NCBI RefSeq assembly: GCF_004801295.1
Contig: NZ_SSOC01000001.1
Span: 372,001-436,000 of the forward strand
Origin: Pseudothauera nasutitermitis
Lineage (GTDB): Bacteria > Pseudomonadota > Gammaproteobacteria > Burkholderiales > Rhodocyclaceae
Direction: 5' to 3'
Length of the DNA stretch: 64,000 nucleotides
Below, one piece after another: positions 10,376 to 64,000 of the stretch. The notes under the pieces were generated by a model. The model saw only the letters and a program-made list of their open reading frames with translations. It was not told where the DNA came from and ran no database searches. The position numbers and the translations under genes were made by a program. The stretch's first letter is position 1. Each line of letters begins with the position of its first letter.

Positions 10376-11584
10376 TCAACCCTTGGTGACCGCGGCGATG
10401 GCCTGGGCCACGTAGCCGATGTTCTTCGAGTTCAGCGCGGCCAGGCAGATGCGGCCGGTGGACACGGCGTAGATGCCGAACTCGGCGCGCAGGCGCTCCA
10501 CCTGGGCGGCCGACAGGCCGGTGTAGGAGAACATGCCACGCTGCTTGGCGACGAAGGAGAAATCCTGCGTGGCGCCGGCGGCCTTCAGCTGATCCACCAG
10601 GCCGGTGCGCATGGCACGGATGCGGTCGCGCATGCCGGCCAGTTCGGTTTCCCATTCCTGGCGCAGTTCGGCGGAGTTGAGCACGGCCGCGACCACGGCG
10701 CCGCCGTGGATCGGCGGGTTGGAGTAGTTGGTGCGGATGACGCGCTTGACCTGCGACAGCACGCGGGCGGATTCGTCCTTGCCGGCGGTGACGATGGTCA
10801 GCGCGCCGACGCGCTCGCCGTACAGCGAGAAGCTCTTCGAGAACGAACTGGAGACGAAGAACTGCAGGCCGCTGGCCGAGAACGCGCGCACCGCCACGGC
10901 ATCCGCGTCGATGCCGTCGGCGAAGCCCTGGTAGGCCATGTCGAGGAAGGGCACCAGGCCGCGCGCGCGGCAGGCGTCCACCACCTCGTTCCATTGGGCG
11001 TCGGAAAGGTCGGCGCCGGTGGGGTTGTGGCAGCAGGCGTGCAGCACGATGATGGAGCCGGCCGGGGCGGCTTCCAGGCTGGTCTTCATGCCGGTGAAGT
11101 TCACCCCGCGGGTGGCCGCGTCGTAGTAGGCGTAGGTATCCACCGGGAAGCCGGCGGATTCGAACAGCGCGCGGTGGTTTTCCCAGCTCGGGTCGGAGAT
11201 GTACACCGTGGCGCCGGGCAGCAGGCGCTTCAGGTAGTCGGCGCCGACCTTCAGCGCACCGGTGCCGCCGAGGGCTTCGACGGTGACCACCTGGGCGTTG
11301 GCGATGAGGGCGGAATCCTTGCCGAACAGCAGGTTCTGCACCGCGCCGTTGTAGGCCGCCGGGCCTTCGATGGGCTGGTAGCCGCGCGGCGGCTGGGCTT
11401 CCAGGCGGGCCTTTTCGGCGGCGCGCACGGCGCCCAGCAGCGGAATCTTGCCGTTGTCGTCGTAGTACACGCCGACGCCGAGGTTGACCTTTTCGCTGCG
11501 GGTATCGGCGTTGAAGGCTTCGTTGAGACCGAGGATCGGGTCACGGGGCGCCATTTCGACGGCGGCGAAGATCGAGGCGGACAT
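10376..11584 (-). CDS. tyrB: Aromatic-amino-acid/aspartate aminotransferase
   Basis: A 402-residue class I PLP-dependent aminotransferase moving amino groups between aspartate or aromatic amino acids and 2-oxoglutarate. The PLP lysine lies in [16 protein letters not shown], the [10 protein letters not shown] segment contacts the cofactor phosphate region, and the C-terminal arm has SRIC-like [10 protein letters not shown] (substrate-carboxylate Arg). Length is close to the 397 of E. coli TyrB and AspC. Start at 11584 has GGAG 5 nt upstream. It is divergent from uvrB. TyrB versus AspC specificity cannot be settled from sequence. Confidence 0.93.
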
Positions 11585-11726
11585 GTGGGCTCCAGTCGTT
11601 GGGGAAGGGCGCGCCGCGGGGCGGTCGGCAGGCCGTGCCGTGACGCGCGAAATGGTCAATAATCGACGTTTGGCGTGGCGTCCTGCGAGGCGCCGCGGCC
11701 ACCCGAAACGAAGCGGAAATTCTAGC

Positions 11727-59966: not shown

Positions 59967-60272
59967 TCAGCGCTCGGGCACGTAGATCATGCGCCCGTCG
60001 TCCAGGCGGTAGGTGATCCCCGCGCGCGAGCCCAGCCCTTCGCCGACTTCGCCGCTGGACTCGTAGCGCGTCAGTTCCTGGCCGTCCTTGATGGTGATGC
60101 GCATGTCGGCTTCCCCCGGGTTTTCGACCACGACGACCCTGTCCTGCGAGAAGGGGTTGAGCGGATTCTGGGCGATCACCACCATCAGCACGCCGATGAT
60201 GACCAGGAACAGGTCGATCAGGTTGACCACCGAGAGCATCGGGTCGTTGTCCTCTTCATCGAGAAAGCGCAT
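59967..60272 (-). CDS. DUF2149 protein, ExbD-like
   Basis: A 101-residue single-pass membrane protein. Asp20 lies at the start of the only transmembrane helix (NLIDLFLVIIGVLMVVI), like the proton-carrying Asp of ExbD/TolR, and the rest is a short periplasmic domain with IYVPER end. DUF2149 proteins occur next to MotA/TolQ/ExbB proteins and CobN-type chelatases. Its start shares one base with the stop of the ExbB-like gene, so the two are translated together. Confidence 0.85.
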   Translation of the reverse strand: MRFLDEEDNDPMLSVVNLIDLFLVIIGVLMVVIAQNPLNPFSQDRVVVVENPGEADMRITIKDGQELTRYESSGEVGEGLGSRAGITYRLDDGRMIYVPER

Positions 60273-60790
60273 CAGGCCGGCTTCCCTTCGCGCTGCCGCT
60301 CGACGTCGCGCAGATCCTGCAGCAGCCAGCGCCGGCGGATGGTCAGGATGAAGAAGCAGATGCTGGCCGCGAGCAGCGCGAGGATCACCGCCGAGAAGGC
60401 GGCCACCATGTTCCTGCCCACCGCCGAGGCGTCGTTGCTGCCCAGGGCCAGCAGTGCCGGGCCCATCGGGATCATGGTGGCGATCAGCCCCAGCATGGGG
60501 GCGGTGCGCGAGACGATGCGCAGCCACTCCAGCCGCCGCATGATCCACAGTTCCAGATCGTCGCTGGCGAGCAGCGCCTGCCCGCCCGCGCCGCCGTCCG
60601 GGGCCTGCCGCGCGTAGGCGAGCAGGGCGCGCGGGTGGGAAGGCCGCCGGCGCTGCCAGGCCTCGACGGCGAACGCGCCGAGCATCACCAGCGCATAGGC
60701 CAGCGCGGCGGCGATCAGCAGCATCACCGGGGCGAGGAAGACCCGCGAAACGGCATAGAGAAGGGTTTCGATTTCGGCAAGTACGGGCAT
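60272..60790 (-). CDS. MotA/TolQ/ExbB-like proton channel protein
   Basis: A 172-residue membrane protein. Three hydrophobic segments are visible (about 13-38, 80-104 and 120-150), with the conserved region RTAPMLGLIATMIPMGPALLALG in place of the TolQ/ExbB pore motif. It should form an ion channel with the DUF2149 protein. I chose ATG 60790, which has AGGGA 5 nt upstream; ATG 60823 overlaps the CobN gene stop (ATGA) and is an alternative that gives 183 residues. Confidence 0.87.
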   Translation of the reverse strand: MPVLAEIETLLYAVSRVFLAPVMLLIAAALAYALVMLGAFAVEAWQRRRPSHPRALLAYARQAPDGGAGGQALLASDDLELWIMRRLEWLRIVSRTAPMLGLIATMIPMGPALLALGSNDASAVGRNMVAAFSAVILALLAASICFFILTIRRRWLLQDLRDVERQREGKPA

Positions 60791-60819
60791 GGGGTTCCCT
60801 GGGTGGATCGGTTGGTCGG

Positions 60820-63800
60820 TCATCCCGCGGCGCGGCCGCCGGCGATGGCCTGGCGCAGGCCTCCGGCGCACAGCAGAAGCAGCATCGCGGCCAGCGCCCA
60901 GCGCTGCGGGGAATCGTCTGGCAGGGGTGTTTCCAGTGCTTCCAGGACTTGTCCCTGCACGGCTTCGCGGGCGCGCTCGGCGCTGTCTGCCGCGTCCGGG
61001 GTGTCGGAAGACACGGGCGCGGCCTCGGCGTCCGGGGCGGCCGCCGTGTCCAGGCCGAAGCCGCGCGCCAGATCGTCGATGAAGCGGCGCGTGGTTTCGG
61101 CGCCGGTGGCCACGCCGTGCTGCCGCGCCAGTTCCTGCCAGCGCTGCGCCAGCGCGCGCCGGGTGTCCGCGGAGGCGTCCCAGTAGCCCTTGCGGATGGC
61201 CTCGGCCATGCGTTCGAGGATCTGGGCCTGCGCCGTGGGGTTGTGCTGCTCGAACCATTCGCGCGTGCCCAGGGCGCGGGTGTCCGTCACGTAGGTGTCG
61301 AACAGCGCCTGCCACTGGTCGGCGCGTACCGTGGAGGTGTCCATGGCCTGCCAGCCGAACAGGTTGTTGGTGACGTTGAGCACCTGCAGCGTGCCGGCGT
61401 AGCCCTCCTGCTGCATGGCGGCGATCCATTGCGGGTTGAGGTAGCGGACGCGCATCTCGTCGGCGAGGAAGCGCGCCAGCCCGGTGGTCCTGACCTCGCG
61501 GCCGCGCAGGTCGGAGACCAGCAGCTGCGGCGCCTGGCCGTCCAGGTGCCGGATGGCCGCCGACAGGCCACCGAGGAATTCGAACGGATGATCGGTGGAC
61601 AGCACGCCATGCACGTTCGACGAGCGCGCCATGACCGCCGCCTGCGTGCCGCGCAGTTGCTCGGCCAGCAGATTGGCCCGCGCCGGCGCCTCGCCCCATC
61701 CACGGCTGCCGTAGGCGTGGCGGCTGCTGGCGAGGAATTGCCGCGCCAGCGCGTCATCGTCGTCCCATTCGGTGGAGCGCAGCGCCAGGTCGGGCACGCC
61801 GGTGCCGTATTCGCCCGGCGCGTTGCCGAAGATGCGGTAGCGCGCCGCCGCAGCGGCCTCGCCGGCCGGCATCCCCCGCTCGCGGAGGGCCGCGGCGATG
61901 CGGCGGTTGTTGGCGGCGACGGGGTTGCCGGGTTCGTCCAGTTCGGCCAGGCGCGCCAGCGCGTCGTCGAGCAGGCGCATGAAGCTGTCGAACTGGTCGC
62001 GATACACGCCGGTGACCTGCACCACCACGTCGCTGCGCGGACGGCCCAGCTCCCTGGCGGGAATGACCTCCAGCGCGGTGACGCGCCCGCCGGCGTCCCA
62101 GCGCGGGCGCAGGCCCAGGGCGTGGAGGATCTGCGCCTCGGTCACGCCCAGGTGGCGGATGGCCTCCGAAGACCACAGGCTGAAGGCGAGCTTTTGCGGC
62201 CAGGCGCCGGCGTGCTCGGCGCGGAAGGCGCTCACCAACTGCTCGTAGGCCACGGCGGCCGATTCGTAGGCGGCGCGCGCCGGAATCTTGTCAGCCTCGA
62301 AGGCGTAGAGGTTGCGCCCGCTTTCCACTTCCGGGTTGCGGATCGGATCGCCGCCGGCGCCCGGCGGCACGAAGCGGCCGGCCAGTCCGGCCAGCAGTGC
62401 CTCGTTCTCGCGGGTGTCGCGCAGGCGGCGATCCAGTTCGCGCGCGCGCTCGGTGAAGGCCGCCACACCGGGGGGCAGCAGGGCGGCAGCCTCGGGCGAC
62501 AGCATGGCGCGCACCGCGAGATAGGCCGGGTTGTCCGCCAGACTGGCGTGGTCCTCCACGAACAGTTCTTCCCGGTCGATGCCCAGCGCGGCGTAGAACG
62601 GCTCGCCGAGCTGCTGCACGATGGTGCTGGCGCGGTGTTCGGCGCCGGCCGGCTGGCCGAAGGTGTGCAGGCCCAGCGGCATGGCGCTGCGGGCCAGTTC
62701 GTGCAACTGGTCGTGCAGGGCTTGCAGGAAGCCGTTGAAATCCTGCTCGGCCTGTTGCGCCGTCCAGCCCAGATCCTCATGCAGATGGGCGGCGACGGCC
62801 GCTTCGCGGATGCGGGCGCTCACCTGTTCGCGCACCTGGCCGTCGTCGAGTTGCTGGTACTCGTGGATCAACTGGTGCAGGTCGCGCAACTGGTCGTACA
62901 GCCCGGCCGGGGCGAAGGGCGGCGTCTGGTGGCTGACGGTGACGGCGCGGCCGCGCCGCTTGGCCTGGATGGCCTCGCCGACGTTGTCCTGGATGTAGGG
63001 ATAGAACACCGGCAGGCTGCCCACCGCCAGCCAGGGGTAGTCGCTGGCGGCCAGCCCGCGGTCCTTGCCGGGCAGCCATTCCTGCGTGCCGTGGGTGCCC
63101 AGGTGGATCAGCGCATGCGCGCCGTAACGCTGCTGCAGATACAGATAGGCCGCCATGTAGAGGTGATCGGGCGCGCTGGCGGTGTCGTGGTAATGGGCGT
63201 GCGGCTCGGCGTGGCGCGGCATCTGCGGCATCACCAGCAGGTTGCCGATCCGCCAGTGGGGAATGACGAAGTAGCGCTGGCCGTCGATCTCGCGGATGGC
63301 CCGGTGGCCGGCGGGTGGCCCGGCGTGGCGCAGTTCGGCCCGGCGTGCGGGCGGCAGCGCGGCAAGCCAGCGTTCATAGTCGGCCAGCGGGTAGAGTCCG
63401 GCCTTGCCCTCGGCCAGCAGGGCGTCCAGCGTGACGCTGCCGTACAGCGCGCCCAGCATGCGCTGCCCGGCTTCGATGACCTGCTGCTCGTCGAGCGCTT
63501 CGCCCACCGCGTAGCCCTCGGCCGCCAGCGCGGCCTGGATAGAGACGATGCTGCGCGGAATGTTCAGGTTCGAGGCCCCCAGGTTCTTCTCGCCGACCGG
63601 GTAGTTCCAGAACATCAGCGCCAGTTTTTTGTCCGCCGGCGCGCGATGGCGCAGCGCCACCAGGCTTTGCAGCTTGGCGATCAACGCATCGGCCTGTTCG
63701 GGCAGCAGGTTTTCCACGCCCGCGGTGGCCGCGGACAGCACCAGCGGATCGCTGATGCCCCAGCCCTCCGGCCCGGCCAGGAACACGGCGGTAGTGCGCG

Positions 63801-64000
63801 GCGCCACGCCGCTCACGGCGGCGGGCCAGTCGGCGGCTGCGCCCTCGCGAAAGCGCAGGGCCTGGAGGACGGGCACGTCGAGCGCGAGGAAATCCCGGCT
63901 GCGCGCCGCGCCGTTCTGCATGTGGGACAGATTGACCAGCGCGTCCACCTGCCCGGCGCCGAGCACGGCCGCCAGGCCGTCCGGCGCGCTGCCATCGAAC
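60820..64000 (-). CDS. cobN: CobN-family chelatase, membrane-anchored (HmuS-like), 5' end cut by window
   Basis: At least 1060 residues of a CobN/BchH-type large chelatase subunit; the frame stays open to the window end so the N-terminus is missing. It has the typical LIHLGTHGTQEWLPGKDRGL and the late motifs SSNVHGVLSTDHPFEFLGGLSAAIRHLDG and VTNNLFGWQAMDTSTVRADQW. Unlike cobalamin CobN it ends in a Pro/Asp-rich linker and a C-terminal helix (WALAAMLLLLCAGGL) that would anchor it in the membrane. It is followed by ExbB-like and DUF2149 genes. CobS and CobT are not in the window, so B12 synthesis is not the obvious role. Confidence 0.88.
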   Translation of the reverse strand, partial: FDGSAPDGLAAVLGAGQVDALVNLSHMQNGAARSRDFLALDVPVLQALRFREGAAADWPAAVSGVAPRTTAVFLAGPEGWGISDPLVLSAATAGVENLLPEQADALIAKLQSLVALRHRAPADKKLALMFWNYPVGEKNLGASNLNIPRSIVSIQAALAAEGYAVGEALDEQQVIEAGQRMLGALYGSVTLDALLAEGKAGLYPLADYERWLAALPPARRAELRHAGPPAGHRAIREIDGQRYFVIPHWRIGNLLVMPQMPRHAEPHAHYHDTASAPDHLYMAAYLYLQQRYGAHALIHLGTHGTQEWLPGKDRGLAASDYPWLAVGSLPVFYPYIQDNVGEAIQAKRRGRAVTVSHQTPPFAPAGLYDQLRDLHQLIHEYQQLDDGQVREQVSARIREAAVAAHLHEDLGWTAQQAEQDFNGFLQALHDQLHELARSAMPLGLHTFGQPAGAEHRASTIVQQLGEPFYAALGIDREELFVEDHASLADNPAYLAVRAMLSPEAAALLPPGVAAFTERARELDRRLRDTRENEALLAGLAGRFVPPGAGGDPIRNPEVESGRNLYAFEADKIPARAAYESAAVAYEQLVSAFRAEHAGAWPQKLAFSLWSSEAIRHLGVTEAQILHALGLRPRWDAGGRVTALEVIPARELGRPRSDVVVQVTGVYRDQFDSFMRLLDDALARLAELDEPGNPVAANNRRIAAALRERGMPAGEAAAAARYRIFGNAPGEYGTGVPDLALRSTEWDDDDALARQFLASSRHAYGSRGWGEAPARANLLAEQLRGTQAAVMARSSNVHGVLSTDHPFEFLGGLSAAIRHLDGQAPQLLVSDLRGREVRTTGLARFLADEMRVRYLNPQWIAAMQQEGYAGTLQVLNVTNNLFGWQAMDTSTVRADQWQALFDTYVTDTRALGTREWFEQHNPTAQAQILERMAEAIRKGYWDASADTRRALAQRWQELARQHGVATGAETTRRFIDDLARGFGLDTAAAPDAEAAPVSSDTPDAADSAERAREAVQGQVLEALETPLPDDSPQRWALAAMLLLLCAGGLRQAIAGGRAAG

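Follow-up and report, generated by a model that had tools for sequence, protein, structure and literature searches.

Two described systems stand closest to the locus analysed here. In Bacteroidota, the six-gene hmuYRSTUV operon encodes HmuS, a periplasmic membrane-anchored chelatase, alongside the ExbB-like HmuU and one more protein. HmuS strips the metal from haem inside a central cavity, where the essential His538 lies opposite His1209, which Glu1212 holds; Met79 and His254 bind a second haem at a neck site, and a Met-rich insertion in domain IV is the authors' defining criterion for HmuS (PMC12583661). In Pseudomonas aeruginosa, PA1922-1925 have been described as genes with a Zur-bound promoter, induced 45- to 147-fold when znuA is mutated (PMC8531726, PMC4542158), whose proteins increase upon zinc depletion (PMC11761036); the CobN-like protein is interpreted there in terms of B12 synthesis, cobalt or free zinc uptake. 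Here we describe an operon at the end of a 64,000-nucleotide stretch of Pseudothauera nasutitermitis DNA (the window; positions 372,001 to 436,000 of contig NZ_SSOC01000001.1, here C1), in which a HmuS-like chelatase with ExbB-like and DUF2149 partners stands behind a Zur-type operator. We propose, with a probability of about 0.5 for the mechanism as a whole, that this is a Zur-repressed zinc acquisition operon with a periplasmic HmuS-like dechelatase.

The operon consists of four genes, encoding a receptor, the chelatase, an ExbB-like protein and a DUF2149 protein, compared with six in the hmu operon. The window edge cuts the chelatase gene: about residues 244-1302 lie within the window (60820..64000, minus strand), the gene continues to C1:436728, and the full protein, taken from a longer piece of the contig, has 1302 amino acids. 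It matches the CobN-Mg_chel family (PF02514, E 2.3e-298, above the Pfam cut-off). Downstream lie the genes for an ExbB/TolQ/MotA-like protein of 183 amino acids (60272..60823, minus strand; MotA_ExbB, PF01618, E 4.2e-7, 30.2 bits against a cut-off of 22.9; 27-row alignment) and for a DUF2149 protein of 101 amino acids (59967..60272, minus strand; PF09919, E 4.1e-26, above the Pfam cut-off; 43-row alignment). Extending the sequence upstream, as the first-pass annotation had suggested, revealed a TonB-dependent receptor directly before the chelatase and outside the window (C1:436728-438704). The receptor and chelatase genes overlap by 1 base, the chelatase and ExbB-like genes by 4 bases, and the ExbB-like and DUF2149 genes by 1 base. 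By inspection, the N terminus of the chelatase is signal-peptide-like, and a C-terminal membrane helix (about residues 1276-1294; 60847..60903, minus strand) is indicated by the sequence, by a helix in the structural model and by clade-wide hydropathy; the signal and topology calls are thus calls by inspection and hydropathy. That annotation's account of overlapping genes for a CobN-family chelatase with a C-terminal helix, an ExbB-like protein and a DUF2149 protein is therefore confirmed by Pfam matches and coordinates. The operon is real and informative, and its layout has been published from one species; judged from the published layout, PA1922-PA1925 follow the same order of receptor, CobN-like protein, ExbB/ExbD-annotated protein and uncharacterised protein.

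The control region carries the first line of evidence for zinc. A Zur-like gene (C1:438898-439299) lies upstream of the receptor, and between the two, 56 bases before the receptor ATG, lies a perfect palindrome, TGTTATGTTATAACA (C1:438761-438775); both are outside the window. Nowhere else in the 4.72 Mb genome is TGTTATNNNATAACA matched perfectly, and one further place matches it with one mismatch; in the surrounding 18 kb stretch 2 sites were seen against 0.04 expected from shuffles. The Zur-like protein belongs to the Fur family (133 amino acids), and its best solved relatives are 7dh7 (E 1.2e-26), a Fur-family regulator, and 4mtd (E 7.4e-20), a Zur of the E. coli type. This protein would sense zinc and bind the palindrome. 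ZnuA-family proteins are also encoded in the genome.

Both the gene set and the operator recur in relatives. The comparison covered 81 loci, namely the window locus and 80 named relatives, the best 80 of 580, which were retrieved by patterns that included a [DH] active-site position. ExbB-like and DUF2149 genes follow the chelatase in 76 of the 81, and four of the five exceptions hit a contig end. Receptor starts were usable at 68 loci, with 13 lacking one, and 40 of these 68 have a site with at most two mismatches near the receptor start (Markov control: mean 0.58, maximum 3). Site density was 1.21 per kb near receptor starts versus 0.024 per kb elsewhere. The 31 best sites, with flanks outside the selection included, have the consensus GAAATGTTATAATATAACATTTC, which we take to be equal to the E. 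coli Zur consensus.

To relate operators to phylogeny, the chelatases were placed in trees. FastTree, with 111 rows, put the window chelatase inside a 68-row proteobacterial clade with local support 98 (100 for 66 of the 68 rows), and HmuS, the B12-type CobN encoded elsewhere in the same genome and nine BchH-like rows fell outside it. A 39-row IQ-TREE analysis under a mixture model agreed, recovering its 19 clade rows as one group with support 98. The 111-row tree omits L025-L028, L032, L122, L123, L148 and the second protein of L080, and proteins shorter than 900 amino acids were unused; HmuS and the B12 CobN are one long-branch row each, which makes the deepest forks unsure. Pseudomonas delhiensis, a close genus-mate of P. 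aeruginosa, lies within the clade. Operators with at most two mismatches were present at 46 of the 65 testable clade loci (3 of the 68 were too short), at 2 of 30 other membrane-anchored relatives and at none of 9 BchH-like loci, in a test region 1.65-3.3 kb before the chelatase that suits the order receptor-chelatase and serves relatives ordered ExbB-DUF2149-chelatase less fairly. With a 4.2 kb region, 6 of the 30 other relatives pass (L083, L081, L079, L078, L166 and L167), at a threshold derived from stretches of 1.65 kb. In a held-out matrix test at the 99% control threshold, which is lenient because the control stretches lie mostly within genes, 31 of 33 and 27 of 32 loci passed, i.e., 58 of 65. 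By means of two motifs, COG0523-like genes were identified in the vicinity of 11 of the 68 clade loci (1.26 Mb), but of no other membrane-anchored locus (0 of 32; 0.49 Mb) and no BchH-like locus (0 of 9). Zur-like genes, in a search seeded with the window locus's own regulator, were found near nine loci, eight in the clade and one at L123, a close relative outside the tree. Judged from these sequence patterns, zinc control of the operon is very probable.

The second line of evidence comes from the active site. The motif HLGTH (residues 542-546; 63091..63105, minus strand) places His546 at the position of HmuS His538, and Asp1046-His1047-Pro-Phe-Glu1050 (61579..61593, minus strand) corresponds to HmuS Asp1208, His1209 and Glu1212; Glu585 aligns with HmuS Glu577. 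His269 (63922..63924, minus strand) corresponds to the neck haem ligand His254. Within the clade, conservation is 100% for His546, 99% for both His1047 and Glu1050, and 96% for His269, whereas in the genome's B12 CobN the positions of His546, His1047, Glu1050 and His269 are taken by His, Asp, Gln and Ala, respectively. The catalytic His/His/Glu set and the neck histidine are thus common to HmuS and the window chelatase. CobN and ChlH/BchH, the class I chelatases, share the overall fold, but differ in the second active-site motif and are described as soluble and cytoplasmic (PMC13227078), whereas the window chelatase is predicted to be membrane-anchored; the C-terminal helix is missing in the nine BchH-like rows and in the genome's own CobN.

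In addition, the window chelatase has two HxxxH motifs, one with His618 and His622 (62863..62877, minus strand) and one with His672 and His676 (62701..62715, minus strand), which together make a four-histidine cluster. All four are present in 62 of the 68 clade rows. Among the 43 rows outside the clade, the cluster is complete in nine, wholly missing in 29 and partial in five; this mostly all-or-none distribution suggests that it was mostly gained or lost whole.

Taking as its basis the gene set, the operator, the clade association, the active-site residues and the histidine cluster, all read from the sequence, the mechanism that we favour would run as follows. In zinc shortage, the regulator would leave the operator, and the receptor, the chelatase and the channel proteins would be made. 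The receptor would import zinc to the periplasm as a complex, most likely with a tetrapyrrole. There the chelatase, whose C-terminal helix would anchor it in the inner membrane, would remove the zinc via its His/His/Glu site rather than insert it; the four-histidine site may serve in zinc hand-over. Class I chelatases of the cytoplasm depend on AAA+ ATPases, and the periplasm contains no ATP. By their family matches, none of the operon's genes is a cobalamin synthesis or AAA+ partner gene; in place of AAA+ partners, the ExbB/DUF2149 pair would use the proton gradient to drive the chelatase cycle. The freed zinc would then enter through a Znu-type carrier.

The DUF2149 protein has one N-terminal membrane helix with Asp20, followed by a small domain (low-confidence model; predicted local distance difference test (pLDDT) 66). 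Asp20 is invariant in the 43 rows and occupies the place of the Asp of ExbD, although the profile match between DUF2149 and ExbD is weak (16 helix columns, probability 23%) and Pfam gives DUF2149 alone. No solved relative was found for the DUF2149 protein (best E 0.2), nor, in an alignment-profile search at E up to 1, for the ExbB-like protein. The authors of the HmuS study assign HmuU and HmuV, the counterparts of the ExbB-like and DUF2149 proteins, to powering the receptor and not the chelatase (PMC12583661), a view that counts against our proposal. The genome also has seven ExbD-family matches, so the receptor need not rely on the operon's own pair.

Several further observations weigh against the proposed zinc mechanism. 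The best NCBIfam match of the Zur-like protein is indeed Zur, at 96.9 bits and under the cut-off of 167. Besides the Zur-like gene, the genome encodes at least two more members of the Fur family, a Fur-like gene at C1:70639 and a Fur-like gene close to a znuA-like gene on contig C6 (G000:C6:299346-299714), near which no operator with at most two mismatches was found. The presence of this second Fur-like gene beside a znuA-like gene, together with the sub-cut-off score, means that zinc sensing by the operon's Zur-like protein is putative. At two mismatches, sites in the genome show no enrichment (10, versus 9 for a reversed control pattern). Across relatives, seven of the 65 clade loci failed the matrix test, an Azospirillum plasmid relative has no site even at three mismatches or fewer, and the operator also occurs outside the clade, at L083. 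The active-site features are likewise not exclusive: the His1047/Glu1050 pair is shared with six sister rows that lack the operator and in which His269 is missing, and the nine non-clade rows with the complete four-histidine cluster have no bis-His pair, so that neither feature alone marks zinc. Comparison of structures is divided, since the model of residues 244-1302 (pLDDT 87) has HmuS as its best Foldseek match and is nearer to Mycobacterium tuberculosis CobN than to HmuS by VIA-align; overall fold is thus not decisive. Finally, no metallophore or tetrapyrrole pathway or carrier genes were recognised among the neighbours, which were judged by eye without a family search.

Of the alternatives, the one that survives best keeps zinc and changes the cargo. 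Here the operon would handle bare zinc or a zinc chelate other than a tetrapyrrole, with another form of stripping or storage, or the enzyme would insert zinc into a ring. Zur control is equally compatible with this, and the four-histidine cluster could store zinc. The receptor, a CirA-like TonB-dependent protein of 658 amino acids, has the colicin I receptor as its closest relative in the PDB, is otherwise near catecholate siderophore receptors and resembles haem receptors weakly, and reviews regard PA1922-1925 as a free zinc uptake system. Set against these points is the retention, at 99-100%, of the central-cavity residues of a tetrapyrrole-demetallating enzyme, and we judge this alternative unlikely.

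A less likely alternative is that the operon salvages cobalt or corrinoids during zinc starvation, with corrinoid cobalt substituting for zinc. A CobN relative under Zur control would fit, and cobalt is reported to rise in a P. aeruginosa znuA mutant and to repress the Zur regulon. A precedent for the same trio under B12 control also exists: nine distant loci of the same class (L033-L041) encode a membrane-anchored CobN with ExbB and DUF2149, and in seven of the nine a cobalamin riboswitch heads either the receptor gene or the chelatase gene. Yet their active site is different, the first motif being HLGRHS or HFGRHS versus HxGTHG in the window clade and the second being Asn-Asp-x-Phe-Asp; at L035-L041 the trio and the anchor are as in the window, but a B12 riboswitch replaces the Zur-type operator. 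Moreover, no cobalamin riboswitch was found in the 10 of the 68 clade loci that were tested (L003, L073, L074, L103, L104, L106, L111, L117, L128 and L129).

Removal of iron from haem, as in HmuS, appears very unlikely here. The gene trio, the catalytic residues and the neck histidine are all as in HmuS, which is also the best Foldseek match, but control is of the Zur type and not by iron, the operon contains neither HmuY nor HmuT genes, and HmuS lies outside the clade. The Met-rich insertion is absent as well, as HmuS 714-933 matches just 52 residues (722-773) of the window chelatase; in the head region of the clade no Met is conserved at 85%, in a comparison where the HmuS sequence began at residue 89, past Met79. 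The C-terminal anchor, in turn, is a feature of the window protein alone in this comparison. With the insertion and the full hmu gene set missing and its tree position apart, we rejected membership of the window chelatase in HmuS. The first-pass annotation had favoured a HmuS-like membrane module over B12 synthesis, with haem or corrinoid as cargo. The first part of this holds, as the B12 CobN sits elsewhere, the tree separates the two, and neither cobalamin genes in the operon nor placement with B12 CobN was found. The cargo is where we depart from it, since a Zur-like gene and a Zur-type operator precede the operon and such operators mark most of the clade; the analogy with HmuS is right in form and probably wrong in metal.

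That the window chelatase is an ordinary B12 cobaltochelatase is practically ruled out, and we rejected it, because the genome's B12 CobN is a separate gene on contig C4 (TIGR02257, 1615 bits against a cut-off of 822), downstream of a cobalamin riboswitch and adjoining cobW, BtuR-family, periplasmic-binding and ChlI-like genes, whereas the window protein reaches 518 bits on TIGR02257, under the cut-off, has both signal and anchor and does not share the Asp/Gln pair of CobN. The name itself nevertheless persists in databases: NCBIfam NF004644, "cobaltochelatase subunit CobN", scores the window chelatase at 1714 bits (cut-off 1248) and hits each of the 14 membrane-anchored proteins tested (E 0.001 or better), and RefSeq calls the plasmid relative cobN. 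The B12 label probably misnames the clade, as it covers proteins that are membrane-anchored, linked to Zur-type operators and equipped with a dechelatase-type active site.

The same trio thus occurs with haem, with Zur-type operators and with B12 control, and with differing active sites, which leads to the reading of a module retargeted from metal to metal. More tentatively, an anchored CobN with ExbB and DUF2149 may be a general periplasmic, proton-driven demetallating machine, acting on iron in HmuS, on zinc in the window clade and on corrinoid or cobalt in the riboswitch clade, with the motor replacing AAA+ partners. If the zinc mechanism is true, many proteobacteria, probably including P. 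aeruginosa, could obtain zinc from tetrapyrroles, the unexplained ExbB/DUF2149 partners would gain a testable role, and one gene label would divide into iron, zinc and B12-linked branches. The accessible portion of the literature on these operons contains no proposal of zinc acquisition from tetrapyrroles, and that on PA1922-1925 contains neither the dechelatase reading nor the clade-wide link to Zur. No title or abstract opening on zinc dechelation was found in a search with poor coverage of subscription journals, and the words "zinc" and "Zur" are absent from the main text of the HmuS paper (PMC12583661).

Some smaller features accompany these results. The linker before the membrane helix contains a VQGQVLE motif (residues 1257-1263; 60940..60960, minus strand), a loose form of which is present in 64 of the 68 clade rows. 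Genes that recur near the loci, as judged by eye from the sequence, are of LysR, ABC transporter, COG0523, sigma/FecR-like, Zur-like, periplasmic and dehydrogenase types. L083 is a divergent locus that has lost both catalytic motifs, yet it retains the trio and a receptor, and its Zur-type site scores 17.8. At L103, L104 and L106 (Alcaligenaceae bacterium, Advenella) the operator was not found, and the neck reads Met-Thr-Gln versus His-Met-Gln in the clade, which may be a sign of a substrate switch. L080 has two CobN-family genes in tandem, one for a membrane-anchored relative and the other with motifs resembling those of B12 CobN. At L034, a thiamine pyrophosphate (TPP) riboswitch (11547-11677) lies at the start of a receptor gene, downstream of the chelatase-ExbB-DUF2149 set.

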